The notes beneath the pieces are model-generated. The model was given only the letters and a program-made list of their open reading frames with translations, ran no database searches and was not told the origin of the DNA. From Acidobacteriota bacterium (lineage in GTDB: Bacteria; Acidobacteriota; UBA6911): a stretch of DNA of 64,000 bases. The stretch spans positions 62,001 to 126,000 of the forward strand of contig JAAYCX010000090.1 of assembly GCA_012729555.1 (NCBI GenBank), read 5' to 3'. Positions 74 through 22,201 of the stretch are shown here, piece after piece (position 1 is the first letter of the stretch; each line of letters starts with the position of its first letter). A program made the translations under genes and the position numbers.

Positions 74-2518
74 TTACAGGCTGTGTTCGCTCCGGTTGAT
101 GACGTCGTCCTGGATGTCGGGGGACAGCTGGGTGAAATAGGCGCTGAACCCCCCGATCCTGACGATCAGGTCCGGGTATTTTTCGGGATGCGCCTTGGCG
201 TCCCGGAGCGCGTCCGTGTCCACCATGTTGTACTGGATGTGCGATCCCCCCTCCGCCATGAAGGCGTTGGTATAGGCCGCCAGCTTCTCCACGCTCTCCC
301 GGCTGCGCAGCATCGAGGCGGTGAATTTCTGGTTCAGCACCGAGGCGTAGGACTCCTTGAACCCGGCCGTGAGCGCGGAACGGAGCACGGCGGTCGGTCC
401 TTTCCGGTCGGCCCCCCGCATCGGGGAAATGGAGCCGTCGTTGAGCGGCTCCAGCGCCTTGCGGCCGTTGGGGAGGGCGCCCACGCCGCGCCCGCCGAAG
501 TAGTGCCACGCGAGCCCTTCCCGCGCGACCATGTAGGGGCGGAAGGGGGCGTTGTCGTAGGCGCGGATGATGCGGTAGGAGTCCTCGCTGAGGCGCCGTG
601 CCAGCAGGTCCACCTCCTCGATGTCGTTGCCGAACTTGGGGGCGGCCAGGCAGAGGCGCCGGATCTCCCCCCCCCGCTCCCCCTCGAAGTCGCCGTCGAG
701 GGCATCGAGCAGTTCCGCCATGGTGAGGGTCCGGCGGTCGAATACCAGCGTCTTCACCGCCATCAACGAATCGGCCACGTCGATGATGGCGCGGTCGCTG
801 ATCCCGAACATGCTCGTGGCGGGGTCGGGGATCAGCAGGTCCTGGCCCAGGTCCATGCAGCTCTGCACCCCCACCGCCGAGAGAAACGGCATCCGGACGT
901 GCTTCGGCTGCTCCTTCCGGGCGATGGCGGCCAGCCAGAAGATGCGGTGGGTGATGAACTCGTGCTGCCGGAGCAGGGCGCCGTACAGCTCCTCGAAGCT
1001 CGCGAAACCGCGCGGGTCCCCTGTCCGGATCCCGGTGCGGCGGCCGTTGCAGTCCAGGCCGTCGTGCAGGACGAGGTGGAGCATGGCGGCCAGGTTGCAG
1101 GCGGCCACCCCCTCGGCCCCGTAGTGCTCGGCCCTCGAGGGGAGGCAGGGGTAGACGCAGCCCAGGCCGCACCACTGCGCCGCCTCCTCGAGCGGGATCC
1201 CGTCCTCGACGAAGCGCGCCACGACCACCTCGTCGTTTTCGAACAGGGGGATCCCCCCCTTGGTGGCCATATTCGTCCGGATCGCCTTGTCCATGATCCA
1301 GTCGGGGGTGCTGCGGTTCCAGCGCAGCCCCAGGGTCGGGGAGGAGAGCCCGAGCAGCCCGACGACGTGCAGGAAGAGGTAGCTCAGCTCGTTCGAGCAG
1401 TCGCGCCCCCCGGCGTCCACCCCGCCGACCATGGCGTTGTTGATCCCGAAATTGATCTGGTGGGACTCCATGGAGCTCTCGGAGGAGACGAAGGTCTGAG
1501 TCCCCCAGCGCCCGATGAGCTCGGCGAGCAGGTCGGACGCCTTTTCCAGCGAGGTGGCCCCGCTCCTGACGTCGCGGATGAAGAAGGGGTAGAGGTACTG
1601 GTCGGCGCGCCCCCACTGGGGGTTGTTGTGCATCGGGTGCTCGTAGTTCTTGCACACCCCGACGATGGCCATCGACTGCAGGGCCTCGTGGAAAGTCCGC
1701 GCCGGGTGTTCGGGCACGTGTTCGCACGCCTCCGCCATCCGGAGCAGCTCCTCCCGGCGCCCCGGGCGCGTCTCGGTCTCGGCCATCTCCCTGGCCAGGG
1801 CGGCGTACCGGTGCGCATGCCGGATCGCCCCCTCGCAGGCGATCACGGCCGCCTGCCAGAAGTAGAGCCGGTCGATGTCGCTCTCCCGGTTCGCCAGGAA
1901 GGCGTCGATGTGCCCGCGGGCTTCCCGGATGATGCCCCCGAGCCCCTCGCGGAGGATCTTGTCCCACATCAGCACGGACGTGGTCTGCCCGAATATCCCG
2001 GTGTCCAGGGTCGGGTCCTTCAGCTTGGCGGCCTCGGCGTCCCGGATCCACTTCCCGACCACCGCTTCCCACGCCTTGTACGTCATCTCCGGCGCCGTGC
2101 GCCCCCGGAACTCCCTGGCGCTCGCGCGCAGGGTTTCGATGCTCTCCCGGTCCAGGCCGACATTGGCGTCCATGGTGATCCGCAGTTCCTCGCCGTCTTT
2201 CCAGATCCCCGGGATGTAGTCCCCGCAGACGTCGATGGAGGTGGCGCAGCCTATGACGGCGGGCGTCAACCGGCCCGCGAGCAGGTCATAGTCCTGGATG
2301 CGGATCTCGACGTTCTCCACGACCTTCCGGAAAAGGAGGGCGCGGCGCAGCTCGATGTCCATCCCGACGGTCTCCCGCCAGGATTCCACGGTCCATTTCT
2401 CCCGGTCGGCGAAGAGTTTCCAGCCCGCCTCCTTCATGGCCCGCTTCCACGCGCCCACGCTTTCCCCGAGGGAAAGCCGGTCGATCCTGTCCAGCAACTG
2501 CCTGTCGATCTCCACCAT
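74..2518 (-). CDS. Glycyl radical enzyme, pyruvate formate-lyase superfamily, atypical active site
   Basis: An 814-residue cytoplasmic radical enzyme. The PFL-type barrel occupies roughly residues 1-650 and the glycyl radical domain the last 120. The radical loop reads VRIGGFSAYF, with the radical Gly at about residue 790, 25 residues from the C-terminus. The thiyl Cys is Cys454 in GLGCVYPC. In diol dehydratases, CutC and hydroxyphenylacetate decarboxylase the motif is CxE; here the +2 residue is Tyr456, and Cys451 and Cys458 flank it. PKFGND and HIQYNMVD, common in the superfamily, are present. The start has GGAG 8 nt upstream. It is the last gene of a three-gene operon, 23 bp after its activase. 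The substrate cannot be told: the missing Glu argues against a dehydratase or arylacetate decarboxylase; a C-C lyase or succinate-synthase-like chemistry is possible, but no small subunits are encoded nearby. Confidence 0.9.
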   Translation of the reverse strand: MVEIDRQLLDRIDRLSLGESVGAWKRAMKEAGWKLFADREKWTVESWRETVGMDIELRRALLFRKVVENVEIRIQDYDLLAGRLTPAVIGCATSIDVCGDYIPGIWKDGEELRITMDANVGLDRESIETLRASAREFRGRTAPEMTYKAWEAVVGKWIRDAEAAKLKDPTLDTGIFGQTTSVLMWDKILREGLGGIIREARGHIDAFLANRESDIDRLYFWQAAVIACEGAIRHAHRYAALAREMAETETRPGRREELLRMAEACEHVPEHPARTFHEALQSMAIVGVCKNYEHPMHNNPQWGRADQYLYPFFIRDVRSGATSLEKASDLLAELIGRWGTQTFVSSESSMESHQINFGINNAMVGGVDAGGRDCSNELSYLFLHVVGLLGLSSPTLGLRWNRSTPDWIMDKAIRTNMATKGGIPLFENDEVVVARFVEDGIPLEEAAQWCGLGCVYPCLPSRAEHYGAEGVAACNLAAMLHLVLHDGLDCNGRRTGIRTGDPRGFASFEELYGALLRQHEFITHRIFWLAAIARKEQPKHVRMPFLSAVGVQSCMDLGQDLLIPDPATSMFGISDRAIIDVADSLMAVKTLVFDRRTLTMAELLDALDGDFEGERGGEIRRLCLAAPKFGNDIEEVDLLARRLSEDSYRIIRAYDNAPFRPYMVAREGLAWHYFGGRGVGALPNGRKALEPLNDGSISPMRGADRKGPTAVLRSALTAGFKESYASVLNQKFTASMLRSRESVEKLAAYTNAFMAEGGSHIQYNMVDTDALRDAKAHPEKYPDLIVRIGGFSAYFTQLSPDIQDDVINRSEHSL

Positions 2519-2541
2519 GTCTCACGCTCCGTTCCGGAGGG

Positions 2542-3477
2542 TCACCTCGAAACCGTGCAGCGGATGCCGCGCTGGAGGTAGGCGGCCCTCACCTCCTCGG
2601 CCCGTGCGTCCCCGTCGGCGCCGAGTTCCTCCATCTGGTATTGTACCCCAAGCGCGCGGTATTTGCTCTGGCCCATCCGGTGGTAGGGCATCAGTTCGAG
2701 TCGGGGCTCCTTCATCCCCAGGCCCGACAGGAAGGCGGCCGTCGCCTCGATATCCTCCGGGGAATCGTTCAGGCCGGGGATCACCGGCTGGCGGAAGAGG
2801 ACATCGGCCCCGCTCCGCACGAGCAGGCGGGCGTTTTCCAGGACCGGGCCGTTCTCCCGGCCCGTGCACTCCCGGTGACGGACCGGGTCGATCACCTTCA
2901 GGTCGAAGAGGAAATGGTCGGTGACGGGAAGGACTTCTTCGAGTGCCTCCCGGCCCGCGTAGCCGCAGGTCTCGATGCAGGTGTCCACCTCCCCGGCCCG
3001 GCAGAGCTCGAAGAGTTCCCGGACGAATCCCGCCCGGGCCAGGGGCTCCCCGCCCGAGGCGGTGACCCCCCCGCCCGAACTCCGGTAGAACATCCGGTCA
3101 CGCCGCACCTCGTCCCAGACTTCGGCCGCCGTCATCCTCTCGCCGTAGCGGACCAGGGCGCCCCCCGGGCAGACATCCACGCAGGCCCCGCAGCAGGTGC
3201 AGCGGGCGTAATCGATGCGGTGGCCCCCTTCGCCGGTGCGAATGGCGCCCTCCGGACAGGCATCGGCGCATTTGCCGCAGCGCGTGCAGAGGGTTTCGAG
3301 AAACCCGATCTGCGGCTCCGCCGAAAGGCACTCGGGGTTGGCGCACCAGCGGCAGGAGAGGGGGCACCCCTTGAAGAAAACGACCGTGCGGATGCCGGGC
3401 CCGTCGTGCAGGGAAAAACCCTGGATATGGGTGATGACGGCCGTCCGGGCCGGGGTGCTTGAACCGCTCATGTCCAT
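2542..3477 (-). CDS. Glycyl-radical enzyme activating enzyme (radical SAM)
   Basis: A 311-residue radical SAM activase that installs the glycyl radical on the neighbouring enzyme using S-adenosylmethionine. The N-terminus has the family signature IQGFSLHDGPGIRTVVFFKGC followed by the cluster motif CPLSCRWC (CxxxCxxC). Two extra ferredoxin-type sets, CTRCGKCADACP and CTCCGACVDVCP, follow at about residues 60-105, as in activases of non-PFL glycyl radical enzymes. SGGEP (SAM-binding GGE) is present. The start is taken at ATG 3477; a second ATG lies at 3471 and a TTG at 3504. It lies 23 bp upstream of the radical enzyme and 39 bp downstream of the cupin, so the three genes are probably one transcript. 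The shared operon makes the partner assignment confident. Confidence 0.9.
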   Translation of the reverse strand: MDMSGSSTPARTAVITHIQGFSLHDGPGIRTVVFFKGCPLSCRWCANPECLSAEPQIGFLETLCTRCGKCADACPEGAIRTGEGGHRIDYARCTCCGACVDVCPGGALVRYGERMTAAEVWDEVRRDRMFYRSSGGGVTASGGEPLARAGFVRELFELCRAGEVDTCIETCGYAGREALEEVLPVTDHFLFDLKVIDPVRHRECTGRENGPVLENARLLVRSGADVLFRQPVIPGLNDSPEDIEATAAFLSGLGMKEPRLELMPYHRMGQSKYRALGVQYQMEELGADGDARAEEVRAAYLQRGIRCTVSR

Positions 3478-3516
3478 ACGCTCGCCGCGGGCCTCTTCAT
3501 CCAATCATCGGGCCGG

Positions 3517-3978
3517 CTAGGTGGGCGGTTCGCTTTCGAACTTGTCCTGCCGCAGCATGGCGATCTGGAACACCGGCCGGTCGATCTTCCGGAAACAGAG
3601 CCCCCCGTGCTCCACCCCCGCGGGGACGTGCACGAAACAGGTTTTGGTGATCGTCGTCTTCACCCCGTCGACGATGAGATCGATCTCCGCGCCCAGTTCG
3701 GAGGGGTCCGCCATGTCGCTCCCCACGAACCCCAGGATCTCGTCGTGATCGTGACGGTGCACCGGGTGGACCGTGGGCACCGACCCGGTCACCCACACCG
3801 CCTCGACGTAAAACGAGCCGGGGACCACCCGGTCGTCCATGTATATGACCCGGTGGATCGGGTCGGGCGCCTCGGCCGGCTTGCCCGCGGAACCTTCCGC
3901 TTCAAAACCGTGGACGCCCGGCGGCAGCTTCACGTTGGTGGAAAAAACGGCTTTCGGCCTGGCCTCGCCTTCTGACAT
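3517..3978 (-). CDS. Cupin-fold protein, first gene of the glycyl radical operon
   Basis: A 153-residue protein with a likely cupin metal site: HPVHRHDHDE (H-x-H-x-x-E type) at about residues 80-89 and PAGVEHGG near residue 125. The strand-rich pattern between them fits a single beta-barrel. There is no signal peptide, so it is cytoplasmic. The ATG at 3978 has AAGGAG 7 nt upstream, which decides against the longer frame starting at 4035. It is promoter-proximal to the activase and radical enzyme, suggesting a role in the same pathway, for example handling a substrate or product or sensing it. Catalytic cupin versus regulatory small-molecule binder cannot be separated from sequence. The family is inferred from motifs only. 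Confidence 0.65.
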   Translation of the reverse strand: MSEGEARPKAVFSTNVKLPPGVHGFEAEGSAGKPAEAPDPIHRVIYMDDRVVPGSFYVEAVWVTGSVPTVHPVHRHDHDEILGFVGSDMADPSELGAEIDLIVDGVKTTITKTCFVHVPAGVEHGGLCFRKIDRPVFQIAMLRQDKFESEPPT

Positions 3979-4033
3979 GCTCGACTCCTTGTCCATGGGC
4001 GCCCGGCATCCGGCGCCGGTGCGTCTCCAGTTC

Positions 4034-4063
4034 ATTAGATTCCATCCACCGCCCCTTTGTCAA
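4034..4063 (-). promoter_or_regulatory. Sigma-70-like promoter of the glycyl radical operon
   Basis: On the minus strand TTGACA (4063-4058) is followed after 18 bp by TCTAAT (4039-4034), one mismatch from TATAAT. It lies about 55 bp upstream of the cupin start and diverges from the ompA promoter. Confidence 0.55.
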
Positions 4064-7420: not shown

Positions 7421-7524
7421 CGCTCCCTCCGCGTCTGCCCGGCCCTCGGCGGCCGGCGCCTGTGATTGTCGCATAAAAGGGCGCCCCCCGCCCCTCTTTC
7501 TTCGGCGGGGATCCGTCCGCGCCG

Positions 7525-7533
7525 TGCTAGAAT
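7525..7533 (+). promoter_or_regulatory. Extended -10 promoter of the selenoprotein gene
   Basis: TGC followed by TAGAAT (7528-7533) forms an extended -10 element 37 bp before the start codon. No convincing -35 hexamer is present at 16-18 bp. GGGAGGCGAGG before the ATG is the ribosome binding site. Confidence 0.4.
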
Positions 7534-7570
7534 CGGGCACCTGCACCACACATTTTATCGGGAGGCGAGG

Positions 7571-9313
7571 ATGGCACCGAAAAGCCTGGTTACCTTCATG
7601 CTGCTGGCGGGAACGGTCCTGGCCGGCGTCCCGGCGTTGGCCGAAGACTCCGGGGGGCGGCGCATCACGGTCCTGAACCCGGCCGTAACCGAAAAGCGCG
7701 CGCCGCGGGTGCCGCTGGCGCCGCGCGCGGGCACCCTGGAAGGGAAGACCGTTTACCTGGTGGACATGAACTACGAGGGGCTCGGGCGCACCCCGGTGCT
7801 CGAGGAGATGGAGCGGTGGTTCGGCGCGAACATGCCCGGCGTCAGGACCGTGCGCCGCCTCAAGAGCGGGAGCTACGTCTCCGACGACCCGGCGCTGTGG
7901 AAGGAGATCGCCGCCAGCCGGGCCGGGGGGGTGATCCTCGGAGTGGCGGGTTGATGGGGGTGTCTGGCGGCCGTGAGCCGCTTCGGCATGACCCTGGAAA
8001 AAGAGTACGGCATCCCCACCGTATCGCTTTCAAACGAAAACATCGTCTCCTTCGGCACCGGCCCCCACCAGGAGTACAGCACCGGGATGCCCCTGCGCTT
8101 CGTGGGGGTCCCCTACCCGTTCACCGGCCTCGGTGAAGACAAGCTGGGGGAGTGGCTCCGGGGGAAGGACCGCGTCAGCGGAAAGAGCCTCATGCCCGCC
8201 ATCGTCGACGCGCTGACCGAGCCCCTCACGGCGGAGGAACGGAAATCGGGGACGCCGCCCGAGGCGGCCGCAGAACCCCGGTTCCTCCCCCCCGACACGG
8301 AGGACAACCTGCAGCGCCTCTTCAAGGAGCGCGGGTGGACCGATTTCAACCCCGTCATCCTCCCGACGGAGGAGAGAGTGCGGGCGATGCTCCGGGGAAC
8401 CAGCCACCGGCCCGACGAGCTGGTGAAAAAGGAGGCCGGCACCTTCGGGACCTCGCGTCCCTTCACCGTGGAGAAAGTGGCCGTCATCGCCGTCATGGCG
8501 GGGGCGAAACCCGAATACCTCCCCGTCATCCTGGCCCTGGCGAGCCAGGTGCCCTACATGGATTCCACCACCTCCAACGCCAACATGGTCCTCCTGAGCG
8601 GCCCCATCCGCAGGGAGATCGGGATGAACTCCGGTATCGGGGTCCTCAGCCCGACGGCCGAGGCCAACAGCGTCATCGGCCGCAGTATGAACCTGATCCA
8701 CAGCATCATCCAGGGGTACAAGGAGGGGGAGACCGGGTTCTCCTCGCTCGGGAATCCGCTGCGCTACAACAACATGACCCTGGCCGAAAACGAGGAGGCG
8801 CTCCCCGAGGGGTGGAAGCCGGTCCACGTCGAGAACGGGCACCCGCCCGAGGCCAGCGTGCTGACGATCTTCTCGGGCTGGAACTTCGTCAACTGCTCCG
8901 GTTCGGTCGTGGAGCACTACGCCCCGCAGCTGCTGATGCGCGATTTCACCCGCGTGCTGGCGGCCACCGGCTCGGCCACCCTCATCATGGACCCCTCGGT
9001 CGCCCGGCAGCTCAGGGAAACCCAGGGGTTCGCGAGCAAGGGGGCGCTGGGGGAGTGGCTCTCGAAAAACGCGGAAGTTCCCGCGGCCACCTACTGGGCC
9101 AACTCGATCACCTCCGGCATGACGGCCCCCCTGGGACGGCAGGGGCTCGAGCCCTACGCCACCTGGCTGAAGGTCCCGGGGGAGACGCTGATCAAGCACC
9201 TCCCCAACGCGCGGAACATCCGGACCATCGTAGCCGGGGGCGAAACCGCGAGCGTCTGGTTCCTCACCGATTTCATGGGGGGGAGAGGGGTCTCGATCGA
9301 CCATTGGCGTTAA
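7571..9313 (+). CDS. Exported UGSC-type selenoprotein with in-frame UGA (Sec128)
   Basis: A single frame runs from ATG 7571 to TAA 9313, broken only by TGA at 7952-7954. Reading it as selenocysteine gives a 580-residue protein with motif GVAG-U-W-G-C at residues 124-131. A Sec signal peptide (MAPKSLVTFMLLAGTVLAGVPALA) is followed by VLNPAV...RVPLAPRAGTLEGKTVYLVD and, after the UxxC, LEKEYGIPTV, which match the N-terminal domain of UGSC-family (seleno)proteins as I remember them. The C-terminal ~400 residues (FTVEKVAVIAVMAGAKPEYLPVILALASQ, given as a pattern near residues 295-320) resemble the partner domain of that family. UxxC implies a thiol/selenol redox role. Read as two genes, the downstream one would lack a start with a ribosome site and the signal peptide would carry only a stub. 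A nonsense mutation is the main alternative. Confidence 0.8.
7952..7982 (+). promoter_or_regulatory. UGA codon and candidate bacterial SECIS hairpin
   Basis: UGA 7952-7954 is followed after 12 nt by the hairpin GCGGC (7967-7971), loop CGTGA, GCCGC (7977-7981), closed by a G-U pair (7966, 7982). Spacing fits a bacterial SECIS, which lies directly 3' of the UGA. A competing small hairpin GCCG-CTT-CGGC occupies 7977-7987. SelB binding cannot be judged by eye. Confidence 0.4.
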
Positions 9314-19502: not shown

Positions 19503-21134
19503 CTAGCCCTTCTCCGCGGCGGCCCATTTGCCTGCGAGGTAGCCGTGGGTCCAGGCCATGCTGTGGCTGAGGCCGGGGAGGATGACGGGGTAGTCGTTGG
19601 CGAAGCGGCGGCCCACGGTGTTGCCCGCCAGGTAGAGGCCCGCGATCGGCCTCCCCCGCTCGTCGAGCGGCTGCAGGCGCGGGTTGACGACCAGGCCTCC
19701 CATGACGGCCAGGAAATCGGGGGTGTCGCTCCACCCGGCGAAAAACGGCGGCCGGTCGACGCGCGTCAGCCGGTCGGGGCGCTTGCCGAAATCGAGGTCC
19801 CGCCCCTCGCGCGCGAGGGTGTTGTACCGCTCGATGGTCGCCCGGAAGCGCTCCTGGGGCACCTTCATCTTCGCCGCCAGTTCCCCGATCGACGCCGCCT
19901 GGAGGATCTGGCCCGATTTGAGCTGCGACTGGAACCTCTTCCTGGTCCCCTCGTCGGGTCGCCAGACGCGGCGGAAGCCCAGGCCCATCTTCGGCACGTC
20001 CTCCGGCCAGCCGGCGTCGAACACCACCCAATACCCCCCCTGCTGCAGGCACTGGTTGGCCAGGCTCTGGGTGTCCACGTCCTCGTTCTCGTACCGCTCG
20101 CCGTAGCGGTTGACGCGCAGGAAGGCGTCGGTCCCCATGACGTGGAACATGTGGGCCATCGGGGCGTGGGGCCCCAGTTCCATGACGGCCCCCATCCGCA
20201 TCGCCATGCGGTGCCCGTCCCCCGTGTTGTGCGCCACGCCGAGCACGCGCTTGAGGTTGGCCCGGGAGGCCGCGAGCGCGGCCGCCTGCGGGCAATATCT
20301 CTGCATCATTTCCGGGTTGCTCCCGTAATCGCCGGTGGTGAGCACGACGGCCTTGTGCGCCCGGATCTGGACGTAATCGCCCGCTCCCGTTTCGGCCAGG
20401 ACGCCGGTGACCCGCCCCCCGGCGCCCGCCAGCAGCTCGGCCGCGCGGGTCTCGTAGAAGACGCCGGCGCCGCGGCTCCGGGCGTTCTGCTCCAGCACCT
20501 CGAGCAGCAGCCGCTGGTGGGCCCCCTCGTTCCACCGGTGGGCCGTCGGGTATTCCACCGTCGATTCGGCCCGGTAGTCCCACCCGGCCGGAAACCCGGT
20601 CGGGCGCGGCCAGGCGTCGATGCGGGCGGCGGTCGCGTCCAGCTCGGTGGGGATCCAGAGCCCGGCCCGCAGCCCGGCGGCGTCGGTCATGCCGAGGATC
20701 CAGTCCATGACGCGGCCGCAGTTGAGGGCCCAGAGCCGGATCAGGCGCGCGTCCGGCTTGTTCCCTCCCCAGCGCATCAGGGCTCCGACCACCTCGTCGA
20801 TGTCGATCTCGATACCGAGCTCTTTCTGCAGCCGGCTGCCGATGGCGGTGTTGTCCCCGCCGAGCGCGGTGAAGGTCGCCGCCTTGTCGATGAGGGCCAC
20901 CCGGGCCCCGGCCTCCGCCGCCGAGACTGCGGCGGCCAGTCCCGCCGTCCCCGCCCCGACCACGAGCACGTCGGTCTCGAGCGCCCGCCCGGGGGAGAGG
21001 ACGGCGTCCCCGGGCGCGGCGGCCCGGGCCGGCCGCCCTCGCAGCAGCCCGCCGAAGGCGACCGCGCCCGCGGCGGTGCCGGTAAGAAATTCCCTTCGAC
21101 TCGAGGTTCCGGTGGTGCTCCGTTTCGGTTTCAC
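19503..21134 (-). CDS. Tat-exported FAD-binding dehydrogenase (fumarate reductase flavoprotein-like)
   Basis: 543 residues from a GTG at 21134 with GGGAGG 9 nt upstream. The N-terminus has a twin-arginine signal, SSRREFLTGTAAGAVAFGG, so a folded flavoprotein is exported. The FAD site begins VLVVGAGTAGLAAAVSAAEAGARVALIDK. GDYGSNPEMM, GRPIAGLYLAGNTVG and NDYPVILPGLSHSMAWTHGYLAG match FAD_binding_2 family enzymes such as fumarate reductases and ketosteroid dehydrogenases. No heme-binding CxxCH or FMN domain is fused, so the electron donor must be a separate protein. The frame remains open to 21365 but lacks an upstream start with a ribosome site. Confidence 0.82.
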   Translation of the reverse strand: MKPKRSTTGTSSRREFLTGTAAGAVAFGGLLRGRPARAAAPGDAVLSPGRALETDVLVVGAGTAGLAAAVSAAEAGARVALIDKAATFTALGGDNTAIGSRLQKELGIEIDIDEVVGALMRWGGNKPDARLIRLWALNCGRVMDWILGMTDAAGLRAGLWIPTELDATAARIDAWPRPTGFPAGWDYRAESTVEYPTAHRWNEGAHQRLLLEVLEQNARSRGAGVFYETRAAELLAGAGGRVTGVLAETGAGDYVQIRAHKAVVLTTGDYGSNPEMMQRYCPQAAALAASRANLKRVLGVAHNTGDGHRMAMRMGAVMELGPHAPMAHMFHVMGTDAFLRVNRYGERYENEDVDTQSLANQCLQQGGYWVVFDAGWPEDVPKMGLGFRRVWRPDEGTRKRFQSQLKSGQILQAASIGELAAKMKVPQERFRATIERYNTLAREGRDLDFGKRPDRLTRVDRPPFFAGWSDTPDFLAVMGGLVVNPRLQPLDERGRPIAGLYLAGNTVGRRFANDYPVILPGLSHSMAWTHGYLAGKWAAAEKG

Positions 21135-21352
21135 GATGACGACCCTCCCGTTCAAGGAAAACTTATAGGGCCTAATCCGCCGCGGCACAAGCGGGAAACA
21201 CCGAGGGCATGGAGGAGATTGCTTTTTGCATCCGCTTGGGCAAGAATGCTGCCGTAACCAATACGGGTTGATCGCCGTCGCGCGTTCTCCTGGAGGCGCA
21301 CTCTTGCCTTCAAATGATCTTGATGTTGCGAACTGAATCCAAAGGAGGTTCC

Positions 21353-22201
21353 ATGATCCGTACAATGATCAGTCTGGCGATCCTGCTCGCCGGCTCCGGC
21401 GCGGTTTACGCGCAGGAATGCACCCGGCCGATGCTCCAGGCGGCGGTCGAGAGCTATCTCGCCGCCCAGACCTCGGGCGACATCTCCAGGATGTCGCTGG
21501 ACGCCAAGGCGAAGTTCCAAGAAAACATGATCCCCACCACCAGGGAGAAGGGGCTGTGGAACACCGCGCTGCCGATCGCGCACACCATCAGCATCTACGA
21601 CGTTCCGCGCTGCAAGACCTTCACCGAGGTGATCGTCACCGAAGGGGGTCACCCCTACGTGCTGGGCACCCGCCTAGCGGTCAAAAGCGGCAAGATCACC
21701 GAAATCGACAGCCTCGTCAGCGACCAGGACGACTGGCTCTTCAACGCCGCGGATTACCTGAAGTATTCGAAGGCCGAAGACTGGCCGGTGCTCGAGCCTG
21801 ACGATCGGGTCAGCCGTCAGGAACTGATCGACGCCGGGAACCAGTATTTTGATTTCGTCTTCCTCGACAAGGGGATCCGCCCCCCCTGGGGGACCCCGTG
21901 CGCCCGGCTCGAGGGGGGGGCCTACACCAATCCCAAGAACGAACCGAGGGACACCTGCCAGATCCCGGCGCCGCTCGGGGAGATGTTCGTCGTCAACCGC
22001 ACCTACGTGGTCGATGAGGAGATGGGGACGGTCAACGTTTTCTGCCGTTTCGGCGACAGCAAGGAGGGGATGCCCGATTCCCACCTGTTCCGTCTGGTGA
22101 ACGGGAAATATCGCTGGATCCACACGATCAGCGTCAACCTGACCGGCAAGCCGATCGTGATCGATCCGCCCCCCAACGCGATTCCGGAAACCGCGCGGTA
22201 G
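21353..22201 (+). CDS. Secreted protein with NTF2/SnoaL-like features
   Basis: 282 residues with a signal peptide (MIRTMISLAILLAGSGAVYAQ). The mature part starts CTRPMLQAAVESYLAAQTSGDISRM, given here as the typical helix opening of an NTF2-like fold, and contains repeated segments about small-residue turns (RVSRQELIDAGNQYFDFVF, then VVDEEMGTVNVFCRF). It resembles proteins annotated DUF8021, from memory and weakly. AAAGGAGG lies before the ATG at 21353. The role is unknown. Confidence 0.65.
   Translation: MIRTMISLAILLAGSGAVYAQECTRPMLQAAVESYLAAQTSGDISRMSLDAKAKFQENMIPTTREKGLWNTALPIAHTISIYDVPRCKTFTEVIVTEGGHPYVLGTRLAVKSGKITEIDSLVSDQDDWLFNAADYLKYSKAEDWPVLEPDDRVSRQELIDAGNQYFDFVFLDKGIRPPWGTPCARLEGGAYTNPKNEPRDTCQIPAPLGEMFVVNRTYVVDEEMGTVNVFCRFGDSKEGMPDSHLFRLVNGKYRWIHTISVNLTGKPIVIDPPPNAIPETAR

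Follow-up and report, generated by a model that had tools for sequence, protein, structure and literature searches.

The gene described here lies on the forward strand of the window, by which we mean the whole stretch of 64,000 nucleotides that was analysed. It starts with an ATG at 7571, ends with a TAA at 9311-9313 and contains one in-frame TGA, followed by the codons TGG GGG TGT (W-G-C), so that reading the TGA as selenocysteine (Sec) gives U128-W-G-C131. A preliminary description had carried the frame through this TGA to a product of 580 residues, pointing to conserved sequence on both sides (GVAG before, LEKEYGIPTV after); the frame is exact in the sequence, and both segments are present. 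The listing of open reading frames splits the gene in two, at 7466-7954 and 7973-9313. The gene stands alone, since its neighbours are a divergent gene upstream and a convergent B12-radical SAM gene downstream, and the window locus therefore names neither an electron donor nor a substrate. The features of the gene are collected in Table 1.

Table 1. Features of the selenoprotein gene, in window coordinates.
Feature	Position	Strand	Basis
Shine-Dalgarno-like gggagg, 5 nt upstream of the ATG	7560..7565	+	sequence
Two-domain UGSC-type selenoprotein gene, 580 residues with Sec128	7571..9313	+	PF24696; orthologues with the same TGA
Predicted cleavable signal peptide, residues 1-24, cleavage between ALA and E	7571..7642	+	composition heuristic, protein and orthologues
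UGSC domain, residues 34-194, predicted Rossmann-like b-a-b-a-b-U-a-b	7670..8152	+	Pfam 34-194; structure models
Sec codon TGA, residue 128	7952..7954	+	105 TGA and 12 TGC in 120 homologues
Resolving Cys131 of the U-x-x-C pair	7961..7963	+	kept in 117/117 Sec/Cys forms
Bacterial SECIS apical stem-loop	stem 7966-7971 with 7977-7982, loop CGTGA 7972-7976	+	covariation; missing in Cys forms
C-terminal partner domain, residues 240-580	8288..9310	+	separate adjacent gene elsewhere (hmmsearch)

The source genome (3.83 Mb, 98.9% complete) was searched for the selenocysteine machinery. The components that the preliminary description had named for such a search were all found: selA (563.7 bits), selB (380.4) and selD (368.7), each above its cut-off, and a tRNA-Sec (72.4 bits, above cut-off), which ARAGORN also reports as tRNA-SeC with the anticodon tca. 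The selD gene (C9:39575-40507) itself carries one in-frame TGA, and the selenophosphate synthetase is thus probably a selenoprotein too. Scanning 84,980 species genomes yielded 80 related loci, mostly from metagenome-assembled genomes, and these were aligned with the genome's own paralogues to give a set of 120 genes. At the codon aligned with the UGA of the window, only three of the 120 genes have anything other than TGA or TGC (Table 1), in agreement with the earlier expectation of Sec or Cys at this position. The TGA is kept at the aligned codon far beyond chance. Orthologues from other assemblies, 95, 93 and 76% identical, have it at the identical position, which argues against a misread codon, and in the tree of homologues the Cys forms are nested among the Sec forms. 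A few long UGSC paralogues (L079, L081, L119) have Leu or another residue in place of Sec (GQLDTCAP, GDMGTSPAT) and are possibly non-redox derivatives.

Single-sequence folding downstream of the UGA gave weak z-scores (mean -0.4 over the homologue set), and for this reason we relied on covariation to assess the SECIS hairpin. In a first group of 23 relatives, 89.9% of the stem cells were paired; double changes numbered 26, where shuffles averaged 11.3, and slid controls reached at most 40%. In a second group of 18 relatives, which have a 4-base loop, 93.5% were paired, with 24 double changes against 8.4 in shuffles and slid controls at about 70% or less. The Cys homologues lack the hairpin: their best six-pair stem scored 3.36, compared to 5.33 in the Sec forms, and their folding energy was -5.0 compared to -9.7 kcal/mol, despite a higher G+C content. 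The hairpin of the window has a G-U at what we take to be the place where bacterial SECIS elements have one. The Rfam model SECIS_1 (RF00031) matched nothing in the genome, but it matched nothing in any control either. Given the codon conservation, the SECIS element and the Sec machinery, we consider it settled, to the extent that anything short of protein data can settle it, that the UGA encodes selenocysteine.

The preliminary description had called the protein UGSC-type. This holds at the level of the Pfam family UGSC (PF24696), which matches residues 34-194, spanning the TGA, with 47.2 bits against a cut-off of 25; the part upstream of the TGA alone scores 18.8 bits, and all 77 of 77 homologues match the family. 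It does not hold for the short NCBIfam equivalog UGSC_fam (NF041046), for which the protein scores 23.6 bits against a curated cut-off of 125. The U-x-x-C pair was borne out by the alignment, the motif Cys being present in every Sec or Cys form. It had also been noted that the family motif would be U-G-S-C, and the literal motif is indeed different here. However, U-W-G-C is normal for this clade, because the long two-domain form varies freely at both middle residues of the motif; a literal UGSC occurs in 5 of the 117 Sec/Cys forms. By sequence, the window protein is thus a long two-domain UxxC variant outside the short equivalog. UGSC selenoproteins, and a UGSC fusion, have been described before (Zhang and Gladyshev 2008, PMC2398784). 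The window protein shares with the known UGSC selenoproteins (PF24696; NF041046; PMC2398784) the N-terminal domain, the Sec or Cys in UxxC and the SECIS element, and differs from them in being long, two-domain, predicted exported and massively duplicated, with variable middle residues in the motif. The fusion reported in 2008, found in ocean metagenomes, carries a domain termed 'Unknown_1' (PMC2398784), which may or may not equal the C-terminal domain described here.

A structure model built from an alignment of 77 sequences had a mean pLDDT of 92.3 over the full protein and 93.7 for the N-domain alone. The modelled domain has the order b-a-b-a-b-a-b-a-b, and its third strand leads into a helix that has the Sec at its start. 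A Foldseek search of the PDB with the full model returned no solved structure resembling the whole protein, a profile search of the PDB returned nothing relevant, and no solved PrdB or GrdB relative for fold comparison was found by sequence search. The full model and the N-domain gave only generic Rossmann-type or implausible Foldseek matches (E about 1e-3, low TM-scores), and we therefore dropped the attempt to name a fold from them. None of the 50 structural matches listed was a thioredoxin-fold or peroxiredoxin protein. The 2008 UGSC paper guessed at a thioredoxin-like fold (PMC2398784). By contrast, the Sec domain is here predicted to be Rossmann-like, and the high-confidence model, with no thioredoxin-fold protein among the listed matches, does not support a thioredoxin-like fold.

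The C-terminal domain, which the preliminary description had taken to be of no known function, matches no Pfam family and has no structural match in the PDB, but it turned out to be a recurrent partner subunit encoded elsewhere by a gene of its own. In ten plasmid records, hmmsearch located it as a separate gene adjoining a short UGSC gene. The split arrangement was seen in all seven haloarchaea checked (Haloterrigena, Halorientalis, Halostagnicola, Halosolutus, two Natrinema and Halalkalicoccus), in four of which two partner genes flank the UGSC gene, and among bacteria in plasmid records of Paracoccus, Arthrobacter, Roseovarius and one Variovorax; in another Variovorax the two are fused. At the split loci our family profiles match with E-values of 7e-18 to 4e-33 for the N-domain and 2e-59 to 4e-85 for the C-domain. 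On plasmid pFER4 of Paracoccus ferrooxidans (L173:5393-5962), the short UGSC gene has an in-frame UGA in a literal UGSC motif, with the partner gene adjoining and selB nearby. That gene is annotated as two hypothetical fragments with the break at the UGA, and UGSC selenoprotein genes are evidently easy to mis-annotate in this way. As judged from these sequences, the window protein is a fusion of two subunits that are made elsewhere from neighbouring genes. The stand-alone pairs (Haloterrigena, Arthrobacter, Roseovarius, Variovorax) have both domains and a UGSC or CGSC motif, and unlike the window gene they consist of two or three genes, show no signal peptide, mostly have Cys and occur in few copies per record. 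Conserved residues of the partner domain include D258, N366, R371 and E406.

In several unrelated lineages, UGSC genes have a thioredoxin reductase gene nearby. A flavoprotein of the thioredoxin reductase (TrxR) type adjoins the UGSC gene in Haloterrigena, Roseovarius, Ramlibacter, Xanthobacteraceae and Hyphomicrobiales and lies in the same gene cluster in two Variovorax; the redox CxxC is kept in every copy examined. In Arthrobacter the gene order is trxB-trxA-partner-UGSC. A directly adjoining trxB was seen only with Cys forms lacking signal peptides. SDR dehydrogenases, aldehyde ferredoxin oxidoreductases (AFOR), a molybdenum hydroxylase, CoA-transferases and TRAP/TTT solute receptors also recur in the neighbourhood of UGSC genes, and they favour a catabolic role acting on small organic compounds. 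Genes annotated as phosphosulfolactate synthase occur near UGSC genes in Natrinema zhouii and Arthrobacter (L176, L178), a possible hint of sulfonate-like substrates.

Some members of the UGSC family match the models of GrdF (sarcosine reductase), PrdB and GrdB weakly (E 0.0005-0.004), while for the window protein itself the GrdB and PrdB family models gave no match at E 0.01. Related genomes encode PrdB-like proteins that match the PrdB model with E-values down to 3e-57. When the UGSC domain was aligned to these with hhalign, Sec fell on Sec, with probabilities of 65, 83 and 83% and E-values of 6e-5 to 8e-6 (GVAGUWGCLAAVSRFGMTLEKEYGIPTVSLS aligned with TPVUPMCNQSVGLIQSVIEKHGIPTTSIS). The UGSC domain is therefore probably a distant homologue of PrdB/GrdB, as far as profile comparison goes, with a strand-UxxC-helix-GIPT-strand core that would be common to both (TIGR04483, TIGR01918 and PF07355 for PrdB and GrdB/F/H). 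Formation of the pyruvoyl group of PrdA/GrdE requires a conserved Cys, and the partner domain has none, its best column reaching 45%. Because the cut-offs are not reached and this Cys is absent, the relationship does not amount to family membership; the window protein scores far below the cut-offs, is predicted to be exported and has no PrdA/GrdE-like pyruvoyl partner. No GrdB-type protein in the source genome passed E 0.001. GrdA, which belongs to glycine reductase only, had no match in the genome, and a control search was likewise without a match. A further likeness lies in the thioredoxin reductase and thioredoxin partners that PrdB/GrdB share with the UGSC relatives: betaine and glycine reductases receive electrons from NAD(P)H via TrxB/TrxA (PMC6716910, PMC8547467). 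Among the PrdB-like proteins of the related genomes (L142-L153), some have UPMC and others have neither Sec nor Cys (GGCALSHQS, PGDALSHHT), so this paralogous family seems in part to work without a selenol.

The cleavable signal peptide proposed in the preliminary description fits the N-terminus, which by a composition heuristic, and in the orthologues, is of the Sec type (MAPKSLVTFMLLAGTVLAGVPALA, followed by EDS). Residues 1-30 have a pLDDT below 60 in the model. By a hydrophobicity heuristic, about 13-15 of the 19 paralogues, including the window protein, have signal-peptide-like N-termini, which are absent from all 12 Cys forms. In the window's clade, some orthologues begin with MDRRKMLALL, which looks like a Tat signal. 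The window protein is thus probably exported, which would place the selenol outside the cytoplasmic membrane. Taken together, the interpretation of the gene in the preliminary description was supported.

The family is greatly expanded in the source genome: of its 19 UGSC-domain genes, 18 contain a single in-frame TGA. This 18-fold paralogy is situated beyond the window. Among 60 genomes searched for UGSC-domain matches, the ten of the genus (source included) had 10-23 each and the others 0-2. High copy numbers also occur in unrelated uncultured lineages, namely two deltaproteobacterial MAGs (15 and 23), a gammaproteobacterial MAG (16), acidobacterial MAGs (11 and 12) and a Dehalococcoidia MAG (26), and in these lineages with 11-26 copies most have the in-frame TGA. 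Two genomes with Cys homologues have 1-2 copies. The 19 paralogues lie dispersed across the tree (15 changes compared to a shuffled mean of 17.1), indicating an old, diversified set with orthologues elsewhere, as far as the sequences tell, and no recent tandem copying. With 18 genes of one family in 3.8 Mb, some uncultured bacteria would spend much selenium on a single enzyme family, probably outside the cytoplasmic membrane. For comparison, the largest whole bacterial selenoproteome named in the literature covered comprises 46 genes (PMC12013277).

These observations suggest a model for the window protein. Selenocysteine is inserted at the UGA, aided by the SECIS hairpin that follows it. The UGSC domain, predicted to be Rossmann-like, bears the U-x-x-C, and the partner domain would probably form the substrate site. 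Sec128 may then attack a small organic substrate, by analogy with the PrdB/GrdB selenol in D-proline and glycine reductase, an analogy limited by the remote profile match (65-83% probability) and by a partner domain without the conserved Cys. The selenium bond would be resolved by Cys131 to give a selenenyl-sulfide (U128-C131), which a thiol relay would re-reduce. In the cytosolic Cys-type relatives, this relay would be the thioredoxin reductase and thioredoxin encoded alongside. Since cytosolic thioredoxin cannot reach an exported enzyme, the window protein would depend on a periplasmic relay, for example the DsbD-type protein, of which the source genome has one, or on another donor. The 18 paralogues would be substrate-specific versions. 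We somewhat favour this reading, an exported two-subunit fusion acting as a selenol reductase on a small organic substrate through a Se-S cycle. In it, the Sec coding, the paralogy, the two-gene architecture and the trxB neighbourhood of relatives are shown by the sequences, and the export, the redox cycle, the Grd/Prd-like chemistry and the substrate diversity are inferred.

The likeliest alternative is an antioxidant role, in which the protein would be a periplasmic, Sec-dependent peroxidase or disulfide or sulfoxide reductase, served by thiol relays and having no catabolic substrate. UxxC together with TrxR/Trx neighbours would fit a thioredoxin-dependent peroxidase too, and uncharacterised UxxC selenoproteins are mostly presumed to be thiol oxidoreductases (PMC2398784). 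However, the predicted fold is Rossmann-like, with no thioredoxin or peroxiredoxin among the 50 structural matches listed, and 18 divergent paralogues with catabolic neighbours (SDR, CoA-transferases, TRAP/TTT receptors, AFOR) better suit a diversity of substrates, so we give the antioxidant role a real but minor chance. The remote homology centred on the Sec motif could also mean a close analogue of D-proline or glycine reductase, cleaving a C-N bond, in which the C-terminal domain replaces PrdA/GrdE. Two orthologues (L020:7637-9802, L021:6457-8766) have a gene for phosphate acetyltransferase that comes after the UGSC gene or overlaps its end, an arrangement recalling the acetyl phosphate produced by glycine reductase. 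This link is confined to those two related loci, with no such gene adjoining that of the window, and with the missing pyruvoyl Cys and no GrdB-type protein at E 0.001 in the genome, C-N cleavage appears unlikely. A third possibility is that the protein is non-catalytic, the exposed selenol binding a soft metal or metalloid, or carrying a substrate, outside the membrane. Selenol enzymes are not usually exported, and other recent selenoprotein families have been tied to organometal handling (PMC13188914); yet D258, N366, R371 and E406 of the partner domain resemble an active site, none of the neighbours seen is a metal-resistance gene, and the TrxR partners point to redox turnover, which makes metal handling quite unlikely. 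Finally, a true stop or an assembly error at the TGA, with a separate downstream gene from the GTG at 7973, might be read from the two called frames and from the split UGSC and partner genes of other organisms, but natural splits fall between the domains and not inside the UGSC domain, and given the conserved TGA (including the 95 and 93% orthologues of other assemblies), the covarying SECIS and the exchange for TGC in homologues we reject stop codon, frameshift and assembly error alike as having a negligible chance.

Returning to the selenol reductase reading, it is tempting to speculate that UGSC, partner and thioredoxin-type reductase form an unrecognised class of selenol-dependent reductases, distant kin of glycine and D-proline reductase, and that several uncultured lineages carry 11-26 fused, largely exported selenoenzymes of this class per genome, reducing many external organic compounds. 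We put this wider proposal forward tentatively, as one that may well prove wrong. If true, it would be among the largest single-family uses of selenocysteine known. Within the literature covered, the separate partner gene with its TrxR/Trx operon, the scale of the expansion, the export and the link to PrdB/GrdB appear to be new. Since 2008, UGSC proteins have ranked among the commonest selenoproteins of the environment, with no function assigned to them. Culturable Arthrobacter, Roseovarius, Variovorax and haloarchaea have the form made of two genes and accompanied by a thioredoxin reductase of its own, so that the function can be tested by ordinary biochemistry.

Two other loci of the window, both on the reverse strand, were noted. 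The first (74-4035) encodes a glycyl radical enzyme of the PFL2-3 type, scoring below the cut-offs of the named equivalogs, with its activase and a small cupin-like protein, relatives of which recur near UGSC genes (L049, L072, L156, L161). The second (19503-21365) encodes a Tat-type flavoprotein resembling flavocytochrome c and fumarate reductase, nearest to the FAD-binding and vinyl phenol reductase families at scores below their cut-offs.
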